DNA of 50,679 nt from contig JAKABA010000017.1 of assembly GCA_021802115.1 (NCBI GenBank), positions 1 through 50,679 on the forward strand, given 5' to 3'. Positions 9,406 to 20,177 of the stretch are shown in pieces (the stretch's first letter is position 1; the number at the start of each line of letters is the position of its first letter). A model generated the notes under the pieces. That model did not search any database. It worked only from the letters and a program-made list of their open reading frames with translations, and was not told the origin of the DNA. The stretch comes from a bacterium. GTDB taxonomy: Bacteria > Chloroflexota > Dormibacteria > UBA8260 > Bog-877. The translations under genes and the position numbers were made by a program.

Positions 9406-10380
9406 ATGGAGATCAAGCTGCCCTCACGATCCGACCTGCTCTGGCTGCTGGCCTCGGGTCTGCCCCCGGCGGGGCCGTTCCCAATCTCCTCCACCGAGCC
9501 CGACCGTGGTCTGTTCGGACCGGGCACCGTGACCTGGCGGGTGATGCGGGAGCCGATGTTGCTGCTGGGAGCCTCGCGGGCCCTGCTCATGCAGGTGGCC
9601 CATCCGCTGGTGGCGCAGGGCGCACTGGACCACAGCGACTTCACCGCCGACCCGGTGGGGCGTTTCCAGCGCACCGTCGCCTGGGTTACCAGCGTGGTGT
9701 TCGGCACCGAGGAGGAGGCGCTGGCGGCTACCAGGACGGTCAACCGCATGCACCGAAAGGTGGAGGGAACCCTGCCGGCGGACCATGCGACCGCCAGCTG
9801 GTCCGCCGGAGCCACCTACCGAGCCCGCGACCCCGACCTCCTGCTGTGGGTGCATGCCACCCTGGTCGACTCGATGCTGGACACCCACGACAAGCTCATC
9901 GGGGGGCTCAGCCAGCGCCAGCGCGACCGCTTCGTGCGAGAGTGGGACGCCGTGCTCAAGATCATGGGGATGGCGTCGGGCACCGGCTGGTCCGGGGTGG
10001 CCGAGATGCGGGGATGGATAGATTCCCAGATCGGCTCCGGCGTTGCCCTGCCGGGGGCCGGCTCACGGTCGGTGGCGGAGGTGATCCTGGTTCCGCGGCT
10101 GGGAATGCGTGGCCCCAAGGGGCTGGCGGAGCTCACCGGCTTCATCACCGCGGGCCTGCTTCCAGAGGTGATCAGGCGGCACTACCGGATTCGTTGGAGC
10201 CCCGCCCACGAAGCCGCCCACCAGGCGCTGAGGATCTGGTTGCGATCGACCAAGACGGTGTTTCCGCGGCCGATGCGCGTCTCGCCGGTCTACGAGTTCG
10301 CGGTCGCCCGGACCGCTGGTGAGCTGGACCGGCACCCGACGCTCCTGATGAATTTGGTGAGGCAACCCCGCCTGGCCTGA
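9406..10380 (+). CDS. Oxygenase MpaB-family (DUF2236) protein
   Basis: A 324-residue member of the MpaB/DUF2236 family, heme-type proteins related to latex-clearing protein Lcp. Family landmarks are WRVMREPMLLLGASRALLMQVAHPLVAQG, cited for its central Q-x-x-H-P, then HSDF and WVHATLVDSML. The His in QVAHP and the H of WVHATL are candidate cofactor ligands. The ATG at 9406 sits 7 nt after TACCCT (9393-9398). GGGGAGG touches the ATG and is too close to work as a normal ribosome site, so a leaderless start is likely. Substrate unknown. Confidence 0.83.
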   Translation: MEIKLPSRSDLLWLLASGLPPAGPFPISSTEPDRGLFGPGTVTWRVMREPMLLLGASRALLMQVAHPLVAQGALDHSDFTADPVGRFQRTVAWVTSVVFGTEEEALAATRTVNRMHRKVEGTLPADHATASWSAGATYRARDPDLLLWVHATLVDSMLDTHDKLIGGLSQRQRDRFVREWDAVLKIMGMASGTGWSGVAEMRGWIDSQIGSGVALPGAGSRSVAEVILVPRLGMRGPKGLAELTGFITAGLLPEVIRRHYRIRWSPAHEAAHQALRIWLRSTKTVFPRPMRVSPVYEFAVARTAGELDRHPTLLMNLVRQPRLA

Positions 10381-11008: not shown

Positions 11009-11086
11009 CGGGAAGTAGCTCAGTCAGGTTAGAGTGCACGGTTCGGGACCGTGAGGTCGGCGGTTCGAATCCGCCCTTCCCGACCA
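11009..11086 (+). tRNA. tRNA-Pro (anticodon CGG)
   Basis: Complete cloverleaf with CCA encoded. The acceptor stem pairs CGGGAAG with CTTCCCG, followed by ACCA. The anticodon stem CACGG/CCGTG closes the loop TTCGGGA, which gives anticodon CGG (codon CCG). The T-arm contains GGTTCGAATCC. A TATACT -10 box lies at 10994-10999. Its last 19 nt form the left attachment site of the integrative element; the gene stays intact after insertion. Confidence 0.96.
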
Positions 11087-11089
11087 GGG
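11068..11089 (+). repeat. attL: 22-bp direct repeat inside tRNA-Pro 3' end
   Basis: AATCCGCCCTTC...CAGGG is identical at all 22 positions to 19084-19105. It covers the T-arm end, acceptor stem and CCA of the tRNA, the standard target of tRNA-specific tyrosine integrases. Confidence 0.92.
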
Positions 11090-11114
11090 GCTCCGACGAG
11101 CTCAGATTTTGAGA

Positions 11115-12311
11115 TCAGATGGAGTCTTGGGACAGCTCCTGAGGCGAGTTTGACACCCTATTTGACACCCTATCGGTTTCCTGCGCGCCCTCCAACAGGG
11201 CCTGCACGGCGAGCGCGGCGTCCCGACGCAGGGAATCGGAGACGTGAGAGTAGCGATCGAGGGTCATCGCCACCGTGGCGTGACCCAGCCTCTCTGAAGC
11301 CACCCGAGGATTGACCCCCGCGCCAAGCATCAAGGTCGCTGCGGTGTGCCTGGTGGCATGGAAGGGCATGTGCTCCAAGCCCGCCCGGCGGAGTAGCCGG
11401 CTCCAGCTGAGTAGCAGGCTGGAAGGGGAGATCGGTCGGCCAGTCGCCGACACGAAGACGAAGTCCTCGGGCCCTGGCGGGGTGCCATCCCCGTCCCAGG
11501 TGCTGGCCCAGGTCGTGCGGTGCAAGCCAAGCCGTCCCAACAGGTCATCGTCAATCGCCAGAGCCCGCCTGGAGCTCGACGATTTGGGTTCCGCCACCAG
11601 TGGCGCGGAGCCGCTCGGGGTGGGTTGGAGGGTGCCCCGGACGATGATCAAGCCGCGGTCAAGGTCGATGTCGCGCCACCGCAGGGCAAGCAGCTCCCCG
11701 CGCCTCAATCCAGTCTTGAGCGCCACCCGGAAGAGGAGCTCGAACTGGTGCCCGGCCGCCGCCTGGAGCACTGCTCTTACCTCGTCGAGTCCGAGGACCG
11801 CGGCTTCCTTCCTCGGCAGCCGTGGCGGGTCGACCAGGTCGGCCGGGTTGTGCCCGCACCGCCCCCACCGCACCGCGTCGCGCAGCGCCCGGTGGAGGAT
11901 GAAGTGCACCATCCTCACGGTGGCCGGCGAGAGACCTTCTCGAATCTTGGCGGCGTAGAGCTGCTGGAGGTCGTCCGGCTCCAGCCTGAGCAGTGGCCGT
12001 CCTCCCAGTGTCGGCGCGACGTGGTCGAGCATCAGCTGCCGATAGCGGCGCCACGATTGGGGGCGGAGGTTAGGCTCGACCGCCACCAGCCACGATTCGA
12101 GGAAGGTGCCGAGCCGAAGCCGGGCAGAGCCGACCCCGCGGCCCTGCGCCAGGCTTCGTTGCAAAGCCCGCAGTGCGACGATGGCCTCGCGGCGGGTCGG
12201 TCCGTACACATATCGCCGGCCCTTGCCCGGGACGGTCAGATACGCGCTCCAGCGGCCATCCTTGCGCTGGCTGACGTTGCCGTCACCCTTTCCTCTCCGA
12301 CTGCGCGGCAT
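11115..12311 (-). CDS. int: Tyrosine recombinase / integrase of the element
   Basis: A 398-residue phage-type integrase. An AP2-like arm-binding region (KDGRWSAYLTVPGKGRRYVYG) is followed by a SAM-like core-binding domain (residues about 65-150) and the catalytic domain. Numbered from ATG 12311 the active site is Arg203 (TGLRRGEL), Lys243, His318/Arg321 (HATRHT), His344 (LGHATVAMT) and Tyr354 (DRYSH), all intact. ATG 12311 has AGGGGG 9 nt upstream; a GTG at 12329 overlapping the xis stop is the alternative. It lies 28 nt from the tRNA. Its C-terminus encodes RVSN twice, the protein readout of the left tandem DNA motif. Confidence 0.95.
   Translation of the reverse strand: MPRSRRGKGDGNVSQRKDGRWSAYLTVPGKGRRYVYGPTRREAIVALRALQRSLAQGRGVGSARLRLGTFLESWLVAVEPNLRPQSWRRYRQLMLDHVAPTLGGRPLLRLEPDDLQQLYAAKIREGLSPATVRMVHFILHRALRDAVRWGRCGHNPADLVDPPRLPRKEAAVLGLDEVRAVLQAAAGHQFELLFRVALKTGLRRGELLALRWRDIDLDRGLIIVRGTLQPTPSGSAPLVAEPKSSSSRRALAIDDDLLGRLGLHRTTWASTWDGDGTPPGPEDFVFVSATGRPISPSSLLLSWSRLLRRAGLEHMPFHATRHTAATLMLGAGVNPRVASERLGHATVAMTLDRYSHVSDSLRRDAALAVQALLEGAQETDRVSNRVSNSPQELSQDSI
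11150..11173. repeat. Left arm-type site: TTGACACCCTAT in tandem
   Basis: Two head-to-tail copies of TTGACACCCTAT, 12-nt periodicity, located 60 nt inside attL and within the 3' end of int. The identical 24-nt block recurs in the same orientation at 18957-18980 near attR. Position and duplication fit binding sites for the integrase arm domain or Xis. Confidence 0.7.
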
Positions 12312-12325
12312 AGCGGACTGCCCCC

Positions 12326-12553
12326 TCACCGCTGCCGCGGCCGGCTCCAGAGATCGGCGGCCGAGAAGCCTGGGCCAACGAAGCTCTCCTCGCCAGCAAC
12401 GAACTCGACCAAGGAGCGCGCGGGGATCCGGGTCAGCCGCCCTAGCTTGACAACAGGAAGCTCTCCGCGCTGGATCATTCCGTAGACATAGGTCCGTCCA
12501 CAGCCCAGGACTGAGGCGACCTCGTTCACGTCGAGGAGCAGCTTCTCGGTCAT
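12326..12553 (-). CDS. xis: Excisionase-type helix-turn-helix protein
   Basis: A 75-residue MerR-like DNA-binding protein of the excisionase family. It reads LLLDVNEVASVLGCGRTYVYGMIQRGELPVVKLGR, where the paired helices and the GRLTRIP wing are standard. Its ATG overlaps the stop of rep (ATGA) and its stop overlaps an alternative GTG start of int, so rep, xis and int are translationally coupled. It should bend att DNA and steer the integrase towards excision. Confidence 0.88.
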   Translation of the reverse strand: MTEKLLLDVNEVASVLGCGRTYVYGMIQRGELPVVKLGRLTRIPARSLVEFVAGEESFVGPGFSAADLWSRPRQR

Positions 12554-13653
12554 CGCATCAGCTCCGACAGGCGGTCCGGACTCATCCTGAACATCCGCTC
12601 AGCACGAAGACGGTCTCGCTTGGCGTCCACCAACCCCTCGAAGTCCCTCCCCGTCTCCTGGAGGTGGCGGGTCGCAAGCGAACCCGCCGTGCGCAGCACC
12701 GCCGCCAGGTCGTCCTCGGTGGAGAGCGCCCCAAGTGCACTGGCATAGCCGATGAAGCCCCGCACCAACCTCTCCTGGGCCGCGGCCCGGACTCGCTGCC
12801 GCACCAGTGGCGATGATGGTGACCCCAGCTCGGCCCGGCGGAGCTCGCTCCAGACCGGGTCCTGGTGCCACCGGGAGCGGTTGCTGTCCTTCCCGGGACG
12901 CCGCAAAGAGATCCACCCCATCCCGTACTCCCACAGTTCCTGGCGCGATCGGAGCGCCTGCTCGAGGGTCTCCAGGCCGAACGCTCGCAGTGCCCGGCGG
13001 CGGAACTGGAACTCGACCCGCCACACGGGCTGCCCGGGGTCGCGGCCCCGCCAGATCTCCTCCTGCCAGTGCTGCTCCCTGGCCGCCATCTCCAGCGACT
13101 TGTCGTAGATGCGGCAGACCACATCACCCTTGCCGAACGTGAAGCCGGAGAAGATGCGGCCGCTGAGGTGCGCCTGCCGGGGCACCTCGAAGAGCCGGCG
13201 ACGAGTGGCCCGGCAGCTGAAGTCCGAGAGGTCCTGAGCGACAGGGACCCAACCTTGGAAGTCGCAGTACAGGTCGAGCCTCGACACCCGCAGTGGGCCC
13301 CTTGCCTCCATCACAGCCTCGTCCAACCATCCATCCACCATCGCCACAGCGGCCTCCACCCCGTAGGCGTGGATGAACGGCGAGTGCCACTGCACGAAGG
13401 CCGGCGGGAACGGGTCGACCGCGCCGAGCATCAGCTCGATCCGCGCCGAGCGCAGCCAGATCGGGTACCCCCTCCAGCCGTGCGGCTTGAGGATGAAACC
13501 CTCGGGGTTGTCGCCGAGGTCAATCAGAGACCCGTCAGCACCGGCTTCGCGGCGGAGTTCGCCCAATTCCTGGCGCAGGCCGGGGCGGAGCACCCCCGGC
13601 GCGGAGGCGTGGATGGTGTCCACTCCAGAGGTGAGGAGATGAAGCTTGCTCAT
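12550..13653 (-). CDS. Replication initiator (Rep_trans-like)
   Basis: A 367-residue protein resembling the replication initiation factor family (Rep_trans) of rolling-circle plasmids and phages. Landmarks in order are SGVDTIHAS at the N-terminus, RVSRLDLYCDFQG (acidic active-site region), SGFTFGKGDVVCRIYDKS (strand plus candidate catalytic Tyr) and VWRVEFQFRRRALRAFG. ATG 13653 is used; its ATGA overlaps the stop of the upstream ORF. It likely nicks an origin in the excised circle so the element can replicate. The assignment rests on motif order, not a database match. Confidence 0.72.
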   Translation of the reverse strand: MSKLHLLTSGVDTIHASAPGVLRPGLRQELGELRREAGADGSLIDLGDNPEGFILKPHGWRGYPIWLRSARIELMLGAVDPFPPAFVQWHSPFIHAYGVEAAVAMVDGWLDEAVMEARGPLRVSRLDLYCDFQGWVPVAQDLSDFSCRATRRRLFEVPRQAHLSGRIFSGFTFGKGDVVCRIYDKSLEMAAREQHWQEEIWRGRDPGQPVWRVEFQFRRRALRAFGLETLEQALRSRQELWEYGMGWISLRRPGKDSNRSRWHQDPVWSELRRAELGSPSSPLVRQRVRAAAQERLVRGFIGYASALGALSTEDDLAAVLRTAGSLATRHLQETGRDFEGLVDAKRDRLRAERMFRMSPDRLSELMR

Positions 13654-14129
13654 TCGATCTCGTCCTGATCTCGGAGCGATGTACTTTGCCACCAGGGTGT
13701 TACAAGCACCCCTGGTGGCTGTGGGCTGATGGAACTCCACCTGACCGGATCGGCCGGCAGGGGGCCGACCGCGATTCTGTCTGGCGGGGTCGCTCCGCTC
13801 ACGCGGGCGGGACCACACTCACTCCCGCTGAGGTCGAGTTGGGTCGGCCGCTGCCCGAAGCCGGCGGCGACTCTGGCCCTCGCGATGAAGCGGCCGAGGT
13901 TGACCCAAGCCACCCTCTCCGCTCCGGCACGAGCACCGGGCCACCCGCTCTCCGCCTCATTGGCGGCGCGGGTGGCCCGGATGGCGCGCAGGGCACAGCG
14001 GATGAGCTCCACAACCTCGACCACCCCGTTCGTGAGCCAGGCCCACCTCGATCGGGCAGCTGACTCATTCGGTGGCATCGCGCACGCGAGAGCGGCGAGC
14101 CCACGAGTGCTTCGCCCGGTCTCCGGCAT
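13650..14129 (-). CDS. Unknown protein, first gene of the rep-xis-int operon
   Basis: A 159-residue ORF from ATG 14129, which has a perfect AGGAGG 6 nt upstream and a strong promoter beyond it. Its stop overlaps the rep start (ATGA). The N-terminal half is helical and basic (SRWAWLTNGVVEVVELIRCALRAIRATRAA) and the C-terminal half Pro/Ser-rich. No family was recognised. In pSAM2-like elements an activator (Pra) or accessory replication gene occupies an early position, but there is no sequence basis for that name here. Confidence 0.6.
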   Translation of the reverse strand: MPETGRSTRGLAALACAMPPNESAARSRWAWLTNGVVEVVELIRCALRAIRATRAANEAESGWPGARAGAERVAWVNLGRFIARARVAAGFGQRPTQLDLSGSECGPARVSGATPPDRIAVGPLPADPVRWSSISPQPPGVLVTPWWQSTSLRDQDEIE

Positions 14130-14161
14130 CGCTCGCCTCCTGGTAATCCGCTGCACCGCGC

Positions 14162-14204
14162 CATGTGGTACGGTCCATTATAGCACGACCACATGCGGAG
14201 TCAA
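14162..14204 (-). promoter_or_regulatory. Strong promoter and operators of the rep-xis-int operon
   Basis: Minus-strand TTGACT (14199-14204), 16-nt spacer, TATAAT (14177-14182). A perfect 8-bp inverted repeat CATGTGGT (14162-14169) / ACCACATG (14188-14195) brackets the -10 box. The 13-mer TGGTACGGTCCAT at 14166-14178 overlaps it and recurs with 11 of 13 matches at the gntR promoter. These are the likely repressor targets. Confidence 0.75.
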
Positions 14205-14312
14205 TGGGTGCGTCAACCCCCACTCGCCCCCAGGCCCAACCCTCGGCCACTGGCTGCGGGACACCCTTTCAAATGGGCATCCCCTTGGATGGACCGGGCT
14301 CTTCCTACCCCT

Positions 14313-15098
14313 TCAGCCGCCGAGCTGAGTCCGGGGGAAGACCAGGGTTGTCAGGTCGGCTGGCAGGTGGACCTCGATGACCGCCACCACCAGAGCATCC
14401 TGCTTCATGACCCGGTACAGCTGGAGCACCGGGACCCCGTCCGGCACGGCCAAGACCCGCTTGAGGTCAGGCGCCGGCATCATCGCCTCAACGACATCCT
14501 CTCCGTCCGCCGCCGTCATCCCCCGGCTGGCGAGCAGATCGGGAAGCCACTGACCATCCAGATCCGCCTCTGTCAACCCCAGTTCCCGCTCGACCCTGGG
14601 GTGAACCCAAGCACGGCGGAGCGAGGGGATGCCCTCGGCCCCGTATCCCACCGACTCCTGCAACAGAACCGCAGTCCCTACCTCCACCTGGAGCAGACCC
14701 GATATCCAGGGAGTCGCGGGCACCCGACGCGTCGCCGGCTCGATCGGGGCGATGACCCGGAACGACCTCACGGGACCAGCTCCAGTCCGATCGCCATCCG
14801 CGGACGCCGACAAGCGGGCCGAGCTCAGCTGCGTCGCGTCCACCAGTCTCCGATCCGCCTTGGGGTCGCGCACGAAGCTGCCAGCCCCATGTTCGGCGAC
14901 CACCATCCCTTCCTGCTTCAAGAGGCCGATGGCGCTCCGCACGGTGGTCCTGGTGACCTGGTACCGGGCCATCAGCTTGCGCTCCGATGGAAAAGCCACC
15001 CCCGTCGGTAGGCGCCCCTCCGCTATGTCCTGGCGCAGGTGGTCTGCCAACTGCTGATATAGCGGCACCGGGCTGTCGCGTTCCAGGGTGGGTCTCAC
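14313..15098 (-). CDS. GntR/HutC-family transcriptional regulator
   Basis: A 261-residue repressor. The N-terminal winged helix is typical (PLYQQLADHLRQDIAEGRLPTG, PSERKLMARYQVTRTTVRSAI), followed by a UTRA effector domain (RRAWVHPRVERELG ... VLQLYRVM). GTG 15098 has GGAG 5 nt upstream and TAAACT (15108-15113) as -10. In pSAM2-type elements a GntR protein (KorSA) keeps the element integrated, and the same job is inferred here because the shared 13-mer sits at both its own promoter and that of the replication/excision operon. Effector unknown. Confidence 0.85.
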   Translation of the reverse strand: MRPTLERDSPVPLYQQLADHLRQDIAEGRLPTGVAFPSERKLMARYQVTRTTVRSAIGLLKQEGMVVAEHGAGSFVRDPKADRRLVDATQLSSARLSASADGDRTGAGPVRSFRVIAPIEPATRRVPATPWISGLLQVEVGTAVLLQESVGYGAEGIPSLRRAWVHPRVERELGLTEADLDGQWLPDLLASRGMTAADGEDVVEAMMPAPDLKRVLAVPDGVPVLQLYRVMKQDALVVAVIEVHLPADLTTLVFPRTQLGG

Positions 15099-15107
15099 AA
15101 CTGCTCC

Positions 15108-15128
15108 AGTTTAGCTGGTCCGCTCCAT
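15108..15128 (-). promoter_or_regulatory. gntR promoter with second copy of the operator 13-mer
   Basis: TAAACT at 15108-15113 (minus strand) is the likely -10. TGGTCCGCTCCAT at 15116-15128 lies just upstream of it and matches the operon operator at 14166-14178 in 11 of 13 positions, in the same orientation. Autoregulation is inferred. Confidence 0.55.
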
Positions 15129-15469
15129 CTGTGGCTCGGCCCTAACCTGACGCAGACCAACTTTGACTAAGCCGTTGGCGAATAGCCATCGTCCCGTGTG
15201 TACGGTCGGGGGGTGGTCAGAAGTTGACCCGACCAGGTGCCGGAAGGCTGTCGCGCCGGAAACTGTTTGCACCGTTCCGCTGATGGCAGTGGTCACTCGG
15301 CAAGTCATCGACCTGCGGTGGCACTGTGCCACTCCTCACTTATTCGGGAGCTTCCCAACAACCAGAGCGACCCACGTCGCGCTTTGCCAGGGTCAGAGCC
15401 TGGAGGTAACCACTTGTTTGTGGTAACGTCGAGCAGAGTAGATGTCGCGTCACAATTCAGGGTCTGCGC
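15129..15469. other. Non-coding stretch inside the element
   Basis: About 340 nt without a convincing gene on either strand. It holds a small stem ACCAC-ttgttt-GTGGT at 15409-15424 and a repeated GCCGGAA around 15239 and 15255. A replication origin for the Rep protein could lie here, but nothing in the sequence identifies a nick site. Confidence 0.3.
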
Positions 15470-15497
15470 CTGACACCGGCGGGAGTCGGCCTATGTT
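15470..15497 (+). promoter_or_regulatory. Promoter of cargo lipoprotein gene, leaderless
   Basis: CTGACA (15470-15475), 16-nt spacer, TATGTT (15492-15497), then 6 nt to ATG 15504. It fixes the start of the lipoprotein gene and matches the leaderless pattern seen on the chromosome. Confidence 0.6.
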
Positions 15498-15503
15498 CCC
15501 ACT

Positions 15504-16214
15504 ATGGCCAACTCAACTCGCGCCGATCGAGAGGGGCCGGGAATGACGTCCCGGGTGTTCGTCCATGCACGTGTGCCGACCTCACTTGGATTGATTGCCG
15601 GTCTACTGATCCTGGCGGCGGCAGCAGCGGGATGCGCCTCGACAAATTCGAGCCGACCGGCAACTCCGAGGCATTTGCCTCGCCTGATTAGCTTCGCGCA
15701 CGGTGCCAGGCCGCATCTCGATACCGGCACGCCATCCAGTACCGTGCCCGGAGCTAGCGTCGCCCTCCAACCTCCATTCTCGGCCCTCTGGAGCGGAGCG
15801 CTAACTGGGCCCCAACCATCGAATTTGCTTCAGGAGATGCCCCATACTGTCACGACAAGCGTCGATCCCTTGGTCACGGTGTTCATGCGGAATGAGACGT
15901 CTTCAGTCGAAACAGTGAGCTACCAGCTTTTGATTACCGATGGTCGCCTACCGTTTACGCTGGGTGGTGATTCTACCGTCCCACCGAGTGCCTGGCCTCA
16001 GGTTGTCTGGAATTCGCAACAAGCGTTGCCTGATGGTACAAGCGAAATTACGCTTCAACCGGGACAGACAGCATCCGCCAGCATGGGATGGCCATCGGAC
16101 CTAGTGTCGTCACGTCCTGGCAACTTCTACGGAGTCGTCTACTTCTACGTCAACGGCTCTGTCTGGGGCGCCCCGACGCCATTCTTCTACTATGAGCCGC
16201 TGACCCTTCAGTAG
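15504..16214 (+). CDS. Predicted lipoprotein, cargo of the element
   Basis: A 236-residue secreted protein. A positively charged start, the hydrophobic run SLGLIAGLLILAAAA and lipobox AAAGC-AS mark a lipoprotein anchored outside the membrane. A Ser/Thr/Pro-rich linker follows. The folded part has beta-sandwich character (VTVFMRNETSSVETVSYQLLI and FYGVVYFYVNGSVWG). The start at 15504 is fixed by a promoter 6 nt upstream. Base composition is visibly less GC-rich than flanking genes, suggesting acquisition. No named family recognised. Confidence 0.72.
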   Translation: MANSTRADREGPGMTSRVFVHARVPTSLGLIAGLLILAAAAAGCASTNSSRPATPRHLPRLISFAHGARPHLDTGTPSSTVPGASVALQPPFSALWSGALTGPQPSNLLQEMPHTVTTSVDPLVTVFMRNETSSVETVSYQLLITDGRLPFTLGGDSTVPPSAWPQVVWNSQQALPDGTSEITLQPGQTASASMGWPSDLVSSRPGNFYGVVYFYVNGSVWGAPTPFFYYEPLTLQ

Positions 16215-16724
16215 TCCAGCCACCACCGCTTTGGGCGCTCTCGCGGCCGAGGTAGTTCGGTCACCACGTCGAAGCGCTTACTGGTTTGCCGACTGGCGAT
16301 GAGGATGTCCTGAGCGGCGTGGAATTTGGTCGGTGGTCCTGGGGCGGATGATACGCGTGAGGAGGGTGGCCCTGCGCGCGCCACAGGCGTGGTCAGGGGA
16401 TGGGTCGCTGCCTCTTGCCTGGGGTCAAGAGCAGGGGGTCTGGAGGTCATGAGAGGTGATTTGCGAGGCTCTACGGCCTTCTCAGCGGCGTGTTTTGGTC
16501 ACGGATGGCCGCAGGATGGCCAGGCGACCATGCTCGGGGCGGCGGTCGAAGTCCGCCCGAGCCGCGCCACCAGCGCCACGGCCAGGTCCACCAAGTGCTA
16601 ATGGCGCTGCCGAAGACCGCACCACCTCAACGACGACCAGCCGGGCAATCGGAAGGCTTTTAACAGAGCACTGATCGCAGCCAACCCGCCCAGTGAGGTG
16701 ACGACAGACACTCCGGTTCGACCA
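16215..16724. other. Non-coding stretch inside the element
   Basis: About 510 nt with no supported gene. A minus-strand frame at 16208-16450 ends with a plausible-looking peptide (DILIASRQTSKRFDVV) but has no recognised family, ribosome site or promoter, and overlaps the previous gene. It may be a remnant. Confidence 0.3.
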
Positions 16725-17234
16725 TTAAATAGCGTCACAAGACAGTCCGCTCCTGACGATCTTGCCAACGGCCACCGTCACGTTTACCCAGCCGTAGAAG
16801 TATGAGGTTCGTAGCGGACCCACGGCAAGGACGTAGTGCCCCGGTGGCAACGAGAATCGGAACTCTTGATGTCGCTTGACCGTCTGCGTAGTTACTTGGA
16901 CACTGGGAAGAACGAGTTTGACTCTATTGCTAGACACTGGTACGAGAGCTGCCGTGCCTCGCAGGACGATGACAGTGCCCGCCACATAGTCGGGCCACTT
17001 GATGTGCGTCGGCAACACCGCGGCGCAGACGTTGATCCCGCCGACGACCACGCCATAGCCGCTTGGGATTGCGATTGACGCGGTTGGTGATGGCGACGGG
17101 TGGGGGAGCGAACTGTTGGCGCAACCGGCTGCCGTGAGCAGGACGCCCATCATTAACGCCATCGCAAATGTGTGCGGTCTGAACCAAGTCAAGATGGGGA
17201 TGAGGCTACGCGTAGGTCGGCTACTTGGCAACAT
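16725..17234 (-). CDS. Predicted small lipoprotein, cargo of the element
   Basis: A 169-residue protein from ATG 17234 (a GTG at 17273 is an alternative). The signal peptide FAMALMMGVLLTAAGC-AN carries a clear lipobox. After a Pro/Ser linker the mature part looks like a single beta-sandwich; the segment FRFSLPPGHYVLAVG resembles carboxypeptidase-regulatory or PEGA-type modules. It is on the strand opposite the first lipoprotein. Its function is unknown, with surface binding most likely. Confidence 0.65.
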   Translation of the reverse strand: MLPSSRPTRSLIPILTWFRPHTFAMALMMGVLLTAAGCANSSLPHPSPSPTASIAIPSGYGVVVGGINVCAAVLPTHIKWPDYVAGTVIVLRGTAALVPVSSNRVKLVLPSVQVTTQTVKRHQEFRFSLPPGHYVLAVGPLRTSYFYGWVNVTVAVGKIVRSGLSCDAI

Positions 17235-17512
17235 GAGCCTGATCGACACCGGCCAAGACCGACCGTCGCCCACGGTAACGGCGGTTGCTCTCGGACCCAG
17301 GTCAGCGAGCTGTCGGGCAGAATGGCCAGACCACGTGCTGCGAGTTCAAGACCTGCGGTGCGTACGAGAGACCAGTGGTCTCAGCGCCATCCGAGGGTCT
17401 CTGTGGTGGCCTGGTGCCGGCGAACGGCGTGGCGACACCTGGACCTGACCCGGCACGACGGGACACCGATAGGCAAATCGCCGGCTCCTTGGGTTCGAGC
17501 CTGGCTAAGCAC

Positions 17513-18751
17513 TCAGCTTCCCACCGCGACCCACGTACGCTCGTTCGTCGTGCGCCAGAGGCCCGCTCCCGGGGCCAGCATCCATCCGTCCAGCGGTCCG
17601 GTGAACGAGAATACGGCTGCATTCCCACCGAGATTGACACCCGGGACGGCGGACCAAGAGTAACCGCCGTCTCTGCTGCCCGACAGCTCGTTGGTCGTCG
17701 CGATCCAGAGCTCCCCCGTCGGGCTCACGCCCAAGCTGGCGAAGTCCTGAGGGGGAAGGCCGGTGGGGTCCCGGGTGCCGAGCGCCGGCAGCAGCGCCCT
17801 GGGGAACCATGTCGCCCCGGCGTTTTGAGACACGTAGATGCCCTTGGGCGTCGAGCCGGCGGCCCCCGACCCTTCGCAGACGCTCACCATCGCGCCCGGG
17901 GCGCGTATCGCTATCGCGGCCATGCCGAACCATGGGTTCGAAGCGCACGGGGACTCGCGAGTTGTCCATGTGGAGCCAGCGTCGCTCGTGACCACGAGTG
18001 TCGACAGCCTGCCTGAAGTGATGGCATGGGTGACCGCCACAGCTGCCCACCCGGGCGCGGGGCCGAGAGCGAACGCGGTGAACGCGTCGACCGCAGGGAT
18101 GGGTAGTACGGAGCCCGGCTGCCAGGACGTCCCCGTGCCGGAGGTGTGCCAGAGGCGCCAGCTGCCCGAGGTGCCACCTGCTCGAGGCGAGGTGAGAGCC
18201 AGCGTCTCATTTCCAGACACGCCGAGGCCAGCCACCGGGCTTCCGAGTTGGCTCAACGTCCATTGCCTGCCACCATCACTGGTTCCGGCCAGCATCCCGT
18301 TTCCTGCGACCCAGCCCGACGTGATCGTAGTGAACGCCACTGAGGAGGCCCGGCCGAGTGAGGTCCGCACCACCTTTGGCAACTGTGACCCTTCCACCGT
18401 CCATGTGGTTCCCGCATTCCTCGTGACGGCGAGCCGCCCCGGGTACGGTTCGGGGCTGGTCTGGATGCCTCCGAGCCGGGAACGGTGCTGAGCGCAGATG
18501 ACCGTCGAAAGGGTAACGCCTATGCCAACCGATGGGCTGAGGAAGTCGATCGAGGCGAGGTACTCGGACGGCACGCGCGACCCAACCCTGAGTATCGTCG
18601 GGTGCTTCGCGCAAGGTGGCGGGCCGAGGATCGCCGATGCGCTGGTGTCTGATGGGATCGAGCCCTCGGGCCCTGACGGCGCCCCGGCACAGCCGGTAGC
18701 AAACAGTAGCAGGGCGGCCGTGAAGCCAGCCGTAAGCCCCCGCACTAACAC
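17513..18751 (-). CDS. Lipoprotein with BNR/sortilin-like beta-propeller, cargo of the element
   Basis: A 412-residue lipoprotein from GTG 18751, which has AGGAGG 5 nt upstream. The signal peptide ends FATGC-AG. The mature part is a beta-propeller built from Asp-box repeats: TRNAGTTWT, SDGGRQWT, SDAGSTWTT, SQNAGATWF and SRDGGYSWS are spaced through the chain. Such propellers occur in sialidase-like, YCF48-like and sortilin-type proteins. No catalytic signature was found, so binding rather than hydrolysis is more likely. It lies next to the right arm of the element, so its promoter must overlap the recombination region. Confidence 0.8.
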   Translation of the reverse strand: MLVRGLTAGFTAALLLFATGCAGAPSGPEGSIPSDTSASAILGPPPCAKHPTILRVGSRVPSEYLASIDFLSPSVGIGVTLSTVICAQHRSRLGGIQTSPEPYPGRLAVTRNAGTTWTVEGSQLPKVVRTSLGRASSVAFTTITSGWVAGNGMLAGTSDGGRQWTLSQLGSPVAGLGVSGNETLALTSPRAGGTSGSWRLWHTSGTGTSWQPGSVLPIPAVDAFTAFALGPAPGWAAVAVTHAITSGRLSTLVVTSDAGSTWTTRESPCASNPWFGMAAIAIRAPGAMVSVCEGSGAAGSTPKGIYVSQNAGATWFPRALLPALGTRDPTGLPPQDFASLGVSPTGELWIATTNELSGSRDGGYSWSAVPGVNLGGNAAVFSFTGPLDGWMLAPGAGLWRTTNERTWVAVGS

Positions 18752-18956
18752 CTCGACCTCCTGCAAGCAACCGTCGCGGGCTACCAGGCCATGGACCCTG
18801 CTATGTGATGGAACGACGCTCGCCGGGACTGTGTTTCAGCCCCGATGCCTCCCGCACCGGCCTGGTCAGCCTTCATGGTCGCCAGTGGCCCGGTTCCCAT
18901 GGCCGCCAACAGTCCTCCCACCTCCGCGCGACTGGCAGCGCCAACATGGCGAGGAC

Positions 18957-18980
18957 TTGACACCCTATTTGACACCCTAT
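18957..18980. repeat. Right arm-type site: TTGACACCCTAT in tandem
   Basis: Identical over 24 nt, and in the same orientation, to 11150-11173. It lies 103 nt inside attR, in non-coding DNA. A perfect 6-3-6 inverted repeat (CGTACC-cga-GGTACG, 19012-19026) lies between it and attR and may be an additional protein site. Confidence 0.7.
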
Positions 18981-19083
18981 CCGGCGAACATAGGCGGATT
19001 TCGGCGTACGTCGTACCCGAGGTACGCCTCGTCTTCTAATACGAAATGGTCACCGGCGCACCCTCACGTACAGTTCACTGGCA

Positions 19084-19105
19084 AATCCGCCCTTCCCGAC
19101 CAGGG
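19084..19105 (+). repeat. attR: 22-bp direct repeat of the tRNA-Pro 3' end
   Basis: Perfect copy of 11068-11089, including the acceptor stem and CCA of tRNA-Pro but none of the rest of the tRNA. It marks the right junction of the element with the chromosome. Confidence 0.92.
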
Positions 19106-19218: not shown

Positions 19219-19506
19219 TTGCTTCGCAGCGCGGAGAGGGACACTCAAGCCGCGGCACGAGATATCGCCAAGGGGTGGCTTCGTACCGACGGCGGTGAGA
19301 TCAGGCCGGGATCGAGCCAGGACGACACCGTCGTGGTCACCAGGACCGGTGCCCCAGCGGGAGAGGCGACGCCCGTGCCGTTGCGCCGCTTCGCGCTCGC
19401 CGATGCCGCAATCGCCATGCTCCGCACAGCTCCGGGTATCGATCTGACCCGGCTTGGGGCCGACCTCGACAGCGTGGTGTCGCAGGACCCCCGCGCGCGC
19501 GCCTGA
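19219..19506 (+). CDS. Possible Phd/YefM-like antitoxin, perhaps degenerate
   Basis: A 95-residue frame from TTG. The segment TVVVTRTGAPAGEATPV resembles the Phd/YefM core (TVVVTRRGKPVA-x-L-x-PV), and the acidic end DLTRLGADLDSVVSQDP resembles toxin-binding tails. It lies directly before a decayed PIN toxin, the usual order. The N-terminal helix region is irregular and no ribosome site is evident, so this gene may itself be decaying. Family assignment is tentative. Confidence 0.4.
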   Translation: MLRSAERDTQAAARDIAKGWLRTDGGEIRPGSSQDDTVVVTRTGAPAGEATPVPLRRFALADAAIAMLRTAPGIDLTRLGADLDSVVSQDPRARA

Positions 19507-19520
19507 TGCCCAACCTGCCC

Positions 19521-19745
19521 CGTGTGACTCATCGACACCTTCTCCGTCATCGATCTTGACCGGTCCTGTGCAGGGCACCTCCCCCTCAAGCCGACGGTCA
19601 CCGCGATCCCCCGCGGCGGAACTCGCCGGCGTGGCTCACGCGACCGGCGACCCGGCCTAGAGAGCGCGCCGACAGGGTCGGTCGCAGTAGCCGGAAGCCG
19701 TCTTCGACTTCCCGCCCGGCGGGGGAAAGTGGGCTGGAGCGTCTG
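19521..19745 (+). pseudogene. Decayed VapC-like PIN-domain toxin
   Basis: Fragments of a PIN toxin appear in order across different frames. LIDTFSVIDLDR (PIN motif with first acidic residues) and PTVTAI are in one frame. After a frameshift come AELAGVAHATGDPA, a stop, then RARRQGR, another stop, and EAVFDFPP. This matches the linear order in actinobacterial VapC proteins (AELAAG...DPAERARRQ...EAVFDPLPF). At least one frameshift near 19610 and two in-frame stops make it non-functional. It lies about 420 nt outside attR on the chromosome. Confidence 0.65.
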
Positions 19746-20177
19746 GTCGAATCTGACCAGCTGAGTCAGCCAAGGAGCGCGGAACTCCGGCATCGCATGT
19801 CCTCACGGCAGCTGCCTCGGGTGCCTCCGCGCCCCCGGGCCCCCGGTCCGCAGTCGCCACCCGAAGCGCTTTGAGGGCCGTCGACAGCTCCTCGAAGTCG
19901 CCGCGGCTGGTTCCACCCGCCGGCCTGCGCCCTGCCCTCGGGGAGGAGCTCTGGCGGGCCTCCGGAGGCATGGAGATGCCGGTGCAGCCGACCGCGCCCC
20001 GCCCCGCCACGGGGTTCAGCGTGAACGCGAGCGTTGGATGCGGCTCCCGACCGCAGTCACATCCATCCGAGCGTCCGCCAAGGGCACCGGCGAGCTGAGG
20101 TCGGGGACCGTGACGCACCCGCTACTCCCCCATCACACGATCCCGCAAGTTCCGACCGTAGACTCCGCCACAAGCCG
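19746..20177. other. Non-coding stretch before the GGDEF/EAL gene
   Basis: About 430 nt with no supported gene. TAGACT at 20159-20164 is the only candidate -10 box for the downstream gene; no matching -35 was seen. Confidence 0.3.

Follow-up and report, generated by a model that had tools for sequence, protein, structure and literature searches.

Short repeated motifs placed on either side of an attP core have been read as arm sites in several phages and integrative elements, and in the published sections drawn on here they were worked out phage by phage. In the Cluster J mycobacteriophages Omega and BAKA, attP carries 10-bp direct-repeat pairs (P1, P2 and P3, P4) on both sides that are read as arm sites, and the sections available report nothing that varies systematically with the integrase N-terminal domain (PMC3706429). 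For the Cluster K phages CrimD and Pixie, 11-bp pairs of putative arm sites lie around the core, and co-variation with the N-terminal domain was suggested from a few phages (PMC3203893). In the attP regions of Oenococcus prophages (IntF/IntB) both arms carry copies of a short direct repeat, ATTTGCACAA (P1-P6), in alignments that end at the int stop codon, and changes in the repeat were proposed to accompany the Int N-terminus (PMC8074189). The IntS system of ICEMlSymR7A has a 283-bp attP with repeated P/arm motifs required for efficient integration (PMC11963761).

The element described here, found in a 50,679-bp stretch of Dormibacteria DNA analyzed in full (the window), is similar to these systems in its overall plan, with candidate arm-site pairs on either side of the core as in Cluster J and in direct orientation as in phages L5 and Giles (PMC3706429, PMC3203893). 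It differs from them in a number of details. The Cluster J motif is 5'-TGCATACg/tPuPy, and the sections consulted for that cluster do not describe arm sites within the 3' coding end of int (PMC3706429); the second pair of CrimD is inverted and the K1 phage cores lie on the 5' side of int (PMC3203893); the Oenococcus unit is 10 bp long, is present in two plus four copies on the arms and belongs to another phylum (PMC8074189); and ICEMlSymR7A has the motif TGKTGGTATC at five sites, with rdfS away from the integrase gene (PMC11963761). We conclude that the N-terminal domain of the element's own tyrosine integrase very probably binds the two tandem pairs of the window as arm-type sites. Arm sites are a known kind of feature, and the present layout is seen again in related elements, as well as in small relatives missing most of int. 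The reading is supported by five comparisons of sequence: enrichment of pairs at integrase 3' ends, partners at the far end, a geometry flanked by att repeats, co-variation with the N-terminal domain and recurrence at the same tRNA-Pro gene.

The 12-bp unit TTGACACCCTAT has four exact matches on the + strand of the window, at 11150-11161, 11162-11173, 18957-18968 and 18969-18980, so that the identical, equally oriented 24-bp tandem of the preliminary description is borne out at both the near pair (11150-11173) and the far pair (18957-18980); the stretch common to both element ends is 25 bp long (TTGACACCCTATTTGACACCCTATC). These four copies are the sole matches at ≤2 mismatches in the 50,679 bases, a count reached once in 100 shuffles (mean 0.83, maximum 4), and the 15 matches at 3 mismatches are not above the chance mean of 13.3, so the window holds no more recognisable copies. 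The same preliminary description had regarded further copies elsewhere as damaging to its reading, and within the window none was found at ≤2 mismatches. The longest exact repeat outside both pairs is the 22-bp att core AATCCGCCCTTCCCGACCAGGG, present on the + strand as attL (11068-11089), which overlaps the 3' end of the tRNA-Pro (CGG) gene predicted by ARAGORN as the integration target (11009-11086, + strand), and as attR (19084-19105). The element measures 8,016 bp, and the gaps between pair and core are 60 bp on the near side (11090-11149) and 103 bp on the far side (18981-19083), the same distances as first described. Within the element, a short motif is thus repeated on either side of the attP core, as arm-type (P/P') sites are.

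The integrase gene (11115-12329, - strand) encodes a protein of 404 aa that was recognized by PF00589, PF14659, the PHROG integrase profiles and structural models, with a three-stranded, one-helix N-terminal domain ahead of the core-binding and catalytic domains. Among 23 aligned sequences R209/R210, H324, R327, H350 and Y360 are invariant and K249 is nearly so; we take these to be the catalytic R..K..HxxR..H..Y residues. By its catalytic and core-binding domains the protein fits the tyrosine integrases with an arm-binding domain (lambda/Tn916 type), and the top PDB match of the full-length model is lambda Int (1z1b; 380 columns, TM 0.39 of the query). The N-terminal domain was not called by Pfam at E 0.001. 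It is predicted to consist of strands at residues 17-21, 27-33 and 37-43 and a helix at 46-61, with a second model similar (pTM 0.55), and when modelled alone it gave a weak match to Tn916 Int (1bb8/1b69) and no significant fold match. Relatives of Int were found at 11 loci in viral contigs (top identity 36%), and the exact 24-mer had 0 matches there.

Searches with Int yielded 266 matches, of which 225 were unique and 219 had the full 260-bp stretch needed for scanning. Since the strict pattern TGTCAA-N6-TGTCAA stands beside just 14 of 168 integrase matches, a de novo scan for tandem pairs was used instead. Such pairs occur at the 3' ends of 67 of 217 related integrases (a set that leaves out L114, which was fetched by the motif pattern, and the window itself) compared with 22 of the 1085 control segments (p 1e-37), and at 69 of 219 integrases as against 2 of 26 XerD-like recombinases of one class (p 0.011). 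This latter control comprised the 26 scorable loci out of 30, where no Xer match reaches its family's curated cut-off, and had pairs at 2 of 26 loci at score 8 and 5 of 26 at score 6. At a score of at least 6 the scan found no tandem pair at 118 of the 219 integrases, where divergent or differently spaced sites were thus either missed or absent. The 67 strong pairs begin at a median of 6 bp past the int stop. Across 47 genomes from the class to which Dictyobacter belongs, the pattern TTGCTGTCA-N3-TTGCTGTCA has 184 matches at ≤2 mismatches as against 13 for the reversed control and, among the matches listed, the same change is found in both units of 65 of 103 two-mismatch matches (2% expected) and of 32 of 66 distinct strings.

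A partner for the pair was sought at the far end of the 72 elements, out of 101 with pairs, that have at least 5 kb upstream, the window included. At ≤5 mismatches 16 of the 72 have it on the same strand; the opposite strand and the reversed pair each give 1 of 72. One element (L048) has a far-end match on the opposite strand too. When L213 (6 mismatches) is added to these 16, again with the window included, 16 of the 17 elements have a direct repeat of 14-55 bp beyond both pairs, the one in which it was not found being L017; this agrees with the earlier suggestion that in the circle the blocks flank attP as arm sites do. In the 16 elements with an att repeat the far gap is 91-131 bp in 15, and near gaps are variable (44-80 bp in 10 of 16); L189 has a different geometry.

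The preliminary description also proposed that the motif be compared with the N-terminal domain of Int in related elements. For 88 of 94 translated integrases, 66 of them with a Xis-like ORF, divergence of the motif tracks the N-terminal domain better than it does the catalytic domain or Xis. The association with the N-terminal domain is 0.274 given the catalytic domain (p 0.002), while given the N-terminal domain the core-binding domain retains 0.114 and the catalytic domain 0.067 (p 0.06; 0.036 in a second analysis). By co-variation, the motif would therefore seem specific to the N-terminal domain of its cognate integrase.

The same comparison bears on the possibility that the excisionase, an HTH_17 protein, and not Int, binds the pairs as direct repeats spaced by roughly one helical turn. 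The MerR-like protein BldC binds direct repeats, and a similar head-to-tail arrangement has been proposed for RdfS (PMC11963761, in the sections consulted). At 50 of the 66 loci with enough sequence the ~3 kb upstream of int include an HTH_17-like ORF, and Xis retains an association of 0.073 with the motif given the catalytic domain (p 0.03). Yet such an ORF was not found at 16 of the 66 loci, and the association with Xis is lost given the N-terminal domain (0.035, p 0.17), whereas that with the N-terminal domain persists given Xis (0.286, p 0.002). Sites on both arms suit Int better than Xis. We regard the excisionase as an improbable owner of the pairs.

The near pair encodes Int residues 387-394, RVSNRVSN, because the reading frame runs through the pair with a 12-bp period, or four codons; its place by the stop codon follows from attP lying next to the 3' end of the gene. 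In KplE1, Int sites similarly overlap the int gene region, at the autoregulated intS promoter and not at the 3' coding end (PMC2951348, as far as the sections consulted describe it). The idea that the int coding sequence contains part of the integrase's own site is correct in that the near block is read as RVSN-RVSN, but the coding is probably incidental, as 70 of the 101 pairs lie entirely past the int stop and only 13 have at least one unit inside the ORF (one of these, L022, with a different word). Several close homologues do keep the repeat in frame, as if it were a selected protein feature whose far copy arose by coincidence or as a trace of gene conversion. It is nevertheless very hard to credit such an origin, when the far copy is outside int, both units change in parallel (RVSN, RGSN, RLSN, SVSN), the homologues P0007-P0009, from a metagenome set 74-94% identical (P0001-P0009), stop short of the repeat, residues 383-404 are disordered in the model (pLDDT < 50) and so many pairs lie beyond the stop. 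Equally remote is a role of the pairs as promoter or operator elements for the genes at the ends, or as sites for the GntR protein: the unit includes TTGACA, the sigma-70 -35 hexamer, but relatives carry GGTTGCACC, TTGCTCTCA and TAGCTGTAA at the equivalent place, so this hexamer is not the conserved feature, and the distance from far pair to att is similar across elements.

If the pairs are arm sites, the core in the excised circle would be separated by 103 bp from the far pair on one side and by 60 bp from the near pair on the other, with the pairs co-oriented. A monomer of Int would hold an arm unit by its N-terminal domain and the core by its catalytic part, and the complex would assemble on attP, with Xis and DNA bending setting its direction; we infer this binding, bridging and directionality at the pairs.

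Upstream of int, on the same - strand, are a xis-like gene for a 75-aa HTH_17 protein (12326-12553; PF12728, TIGR01764), an adjoining gene (12550-13818) with weak PHROG matches only, no Pfam match and a 47% identical counterpart in L344, and a gene for a GntR/UTRA regulator (14313-15098; PF00392, PF07702). A sequence search of the PDB with the protein of 12550-13653 found no relative, and four proteins of the element gave no PADLOC match. The int-xis order and the GntR gene are AICE-like traits. AICEs are pSAM2-like integrative conjugative elements of actinomycetes with a conjugative translocase of the FtsK/TraB type; membership was rejected, as Pfam found no family of that type among the 8 element ORFs scanned. 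Directly outside attR (19254-19838, + strand) is an apparently decayed, diverged copy of the antitoxin/PIN cargo carried by the mini-elements described below, 72% identical in DNA to L345, with no full-length PIN frame among the listed + strand ORFs of at least 60 aa.

Related near ends follow the same tRNA-Pro gene in L342, L344, L347, L348, L349 and L351. In L344, from a related genome, Int is 92% identical and the near 24-mer and 60-bp gap are the same; the far ends of L343, L345 and L346 keep the 24-mer and the 103-bp spacing. Among these hand-picked ends, with the fused end of L348 counted in both alignments, a single unit is present at 4 of the 10 near ends and at 3 of the 9 far ends. 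For four related near ends the mean pairwise identity is 0.92 in the pair, 0.64 in the preceding gap and 0.79 in the following int stub. Both gaps contain conserved blocks: in the near gap GAGATC is the same in all 8 near ends compared, and the far gap has blocks conserved in the related far ends.

Several of these relatives are ~1-kb derivatives (mini-elements) that retain att, the arm units and a stub of int on the flanks of a PIN/antitoxin-like pair. With tblastn the mini-elements showed int stubs only, and L348 none. The far core is recognisable at ≤3 mismatches in L343, L345 and L351 and not in L342, L346 and L347; L345 and L351 stand in tandem with other copies. Cis-mobilizable elements (CIMEs), which keep att sites, have lost recombination and mobilisation genes and are mobilised through accretion with a complete element, may be comparable in their att-like ends, incomplete int and tandem arrangements with other copies, but the present relatives differ from them, in the sections consulted, in having the PIN/antitoxin-like pair as sole recognised cargo, in keeping the arm units and in showing no evident conjugation module (PMC7563491).

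A search for a 10-13 bp pair in tandem beside the int stop, with a partner at the far end and att outside both, located candidate arm sites beside related integrases of several phyla, together with a co-varying N-terminal domain, and offers a way to locate the ends of elements. With so many natural combinations of motif and N-terminal domain, the recognition code of arm-binding domains becomes testable. For the Dormibacteria we put forward, tentatively and at somewhat less than even odds, that complete elements coexist at tRNA-Pro (CGG) with ~1-kb non-autonomous cassettes that are integrated and excised in trans by the Int of a complete element. The proposed order of a cassette is core, 60 bp, near unit(s) in the int 3' stub, a Phd/YefM-like antitoxin and PIN toxin, far unit(s), 103 bp and core. 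Because an arm site lies within the int reading frame, such cassettes would have to keep the 3' end of int; the stub might then be a cis-acting site and not mere debris, which is a possible reason why a 3' fragment of int persists in deletion derivatives.

The element in the window is bounded by exact 22-bp direct repeats and measures 8,016 bp, and the two tandem pairs of 12-bp units that it carries near its ends are very probably arm-type sites for its tyrosine integrase (Int). The unit TTGACACCCTAT occurs twice in tandem at 11150-11173 (the near pair, at the int end) and again at 18957-18980 (the far pair), so that the identity and shared orientation of the pairs reported in a preliminary description are exact; both lie on one strand, and no further copies with up to two mismatches were found within the 50,679-nt window. 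One copy of the att core (11068-11089), corresponding to the 3' end of a tRNA-Pro CGG gene, lies outside the near pair and the second (19084-19105) outside the far pair, at gaps of 60 bp and 103 bp respectively, as had been described. Genes for Int (11115-12329; 404 aa; PF00589/PF14659), an HTH_17 excisionase-like protein (Xis), an unassigned protein and a GntR regulator lie on the minus strand between the repeats, and none of the 8 ORFs scanned is of the FtsK/TraB type. The near pair overlaps int probably because attP adjoins the 3' end of that gene; it is indeed translated as RVSNRVSN (residues 387-394), in an Int tail that is disordered in the predicted model. The far gap (18981-19083) contains conserved blocks and an inverted repeat, GGCGTAC...GTACGCC, at 19003-19028, and GAGATC in the near gap (11111-11116) is invariant across 8 near ends; GAGATC and the far-gap blocks are possible sites for Xis or bending proteins. 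Among relatives of a flanking kynureninase, the best one with an organism name (78% identity) is from Candidatus Dormibacteria, and another is 99% identical; the host presumably belongs to this group as well.

Locus L344, from another genome, has an element in the same tRNA-Pro gene, with Int, Xis and the third protein matching those of the window at 92%, 72% and 47%; at its near end (the stretch compared stops short of the far end) the 24-mer, again inside int, is identical to that of the window and the gap is likewise 60 bp. The far 24-mer is identical in loci L343, L345 and L346, which align with the window ungapped across the 103-bp far gap, and is kept in L346 despite a degenerate core. 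Mean pairwise identity among four related near ends reaches 0.92 in the pair, against 0.64 in the preceding gap and 0.79 in the stub that follows. Of the ends compared, 4 of the 10 near ones and 3 of the 9 far ones have a single unit. The number of units apparently shrinks by exact repeats, and at the near end such losses stay in the int reading frame. One 12-bp unit is absent at one end in L349, L351, L342 and L345. In the class that includes Ca. Aeolococcus (Dormibacteria), 31 of the 110 genomes searched contain the pattern GGGTGTCAA-N3-GGGTGTCAA with at most two mismatches; 50 matches were listed, vs 5 for the reversed control.

A protein search detected the C-terminal tetrapeptide repeat in Int relatives down to ~50% identity, with both tail units changing in parallel (RVSN-RVSN, RVSR-RVSK, RGSN-RGSN, RLSN-RLSS, SVSN-SVSG); the homologues P0007-P0009 (73-75% identity to Int) terminate ahead of it. 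When the DNA of related integrases was scanned de novo for two adjacent words of 10-13 bp in the 260 bp past the catalytic tyrosine, tandem pairs scoring at least 8 were found for 67 of 217 ints and in 22 of 1085 control segments; for XerD-like recombinases of one class the counts were 2/26 at score 8 and 5/26 at score 6. For the 67 strong pairs the median start is 6 bp past the stop, with -2.5 and 16.5 as the quartiles. The words vary among relatives (TTGCTGTCA, TTGGTGTCA, TTGCTCTCA, GGTTGCACC, TAGCTGTAA). Across 47 genomes from the class that includes Dictyobacter (Ktedonobacteria), a fixed pattern gave 184 matches and its reversed control 13. Among the matches listed for that class, the change is identical in both units in 65 of 103 with two mismatches or, with each distinct string counted once, in 32 of 66.

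A partner pair upstream of int (at most 5 mismatches in 20-24 bp) was found on the same strand at 16 of 72 loci, the window included, and on the opposite strand at one (L048, where a same-strand partner also exists); the reversed-word control likewise gave 1/72. Direct repeats of 14-55 bp lie outside both pairs in 16 of 17 both-ended elements, and random segments from the same loci share stretches of at most 10-12 bp, except at L026, where the control reached 55, presumably by striking the repeat itself. L017, from Dictyobacter arantiisoli, has no att repeat outside its pairs (longest, 7 bp). Its pairs stand at both ends, 7.3 kb apart. Of the 16 elements that do have an att repeat, 15 show far gaps of 91-131 bp and 10 show near gaps of 44-80 bp; L189 is an outlier in geometry, with gaps of 7 and 162 bp.

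Co-variation of the motif with the Int N-terminal domain, a comparison raised in the preliminary description, was borne out: across 88 ints, motif distance correlates with distance in this domain (residues 10-62; rho 0.309) above the core-binding (0.205) and catalytic (0.162) domains. In partial correlations, which control only in part for kinship among ints, the N-domain retains 0.274 (p 0.002) with the catalytic domain accounted for, and given the N-domain the catalytic domain retains 0.067 (p 0.06 in one run, 0.036 in another) and the core-binding domain 0.114. At 66 loci the values are 0.286 (p 0.002) for the N-domain given Xis, 0.035 (p 0.17) for Xis given the N-domain, and 0.073 (p 0.03) for Xis given the catalytic domain. 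The N-domain is modeled as three strands and one helix, for which the predicted structure alone gives weak matches to AP2 and dsRNA-binding folds and to Tn916 Int; the first solved-structure match of the full-length model is lambda integrase. In lambda-type integrases the N-domain occupies arm sites and the catalytic part acts at the core, in a complex that bridges attP. By analogy, the N-terminal domain of Int would hold the arm units while its catalytic part acts at the core, and pairs on both arms would let an Int tetramer bridge attP, a mechanism that probably carries over from the lambda type, for which the parts of PMC8138268 consulted offer general statements. Arm-site pairs or sets around a core are already known (PMC3706429, PMC3203893, PMC10865867, PMC11963761, PMC8074189), and in KplE1 Int sites overlap the int promoter (PMC2951348). 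Arm sites within the coding end of int are absent from the titles and opening abstracts found in a largely open-access literature.

Seven tRNA-Pro loci (L342, L345, L346, L347, L348, L349 and L351) have in common up to ~1 kb of cargo, in BLASTN pieces of 80-99% identity (L349 is truncated at its contig end), within mini-elements with one or more arm units at their ends, the far end being present where the sequence extends that far; the cargo DNA also occurs in L343. The mini-element in L347 (8451-9700) has arm unit(s), an int 3' stub and cargo that matches PIN above, and a Phd/YefM antitoxin below, the Pfam cut-off. Such a stub lies between core and cargo wherever the near side was compared, save in L348, where tblastn finds no int and a near end continues directly into a far end (~9834-10055), as if the two direct-repeat pairs had recombined with loss of all between them. 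Tandem arrangements occur in L345 and L351. In L342, L346 and L347 no far core can be recognised with 3 mismatches allowed. Cargo DNA is matched at E 0.001 in 28 of the 110 genomes and with at least 500 bits in 12. A diverged copy, 72% identical to that of L345, lies just outside attR in the window (19254-19838) and precedes a GGDEF/EAL gene, as in L345; the ORF at 19219-19506 in this region has no Pfam match. CIMEs are described in PMC7563491, and mini-elements with toxin-antitoxin cargo in Dormibacteria are absent from the titles and opening abstracts found in the largely open-access literature. Judged by their sequences, the mini-elements may be mobile in trans, or else they may be remnants.
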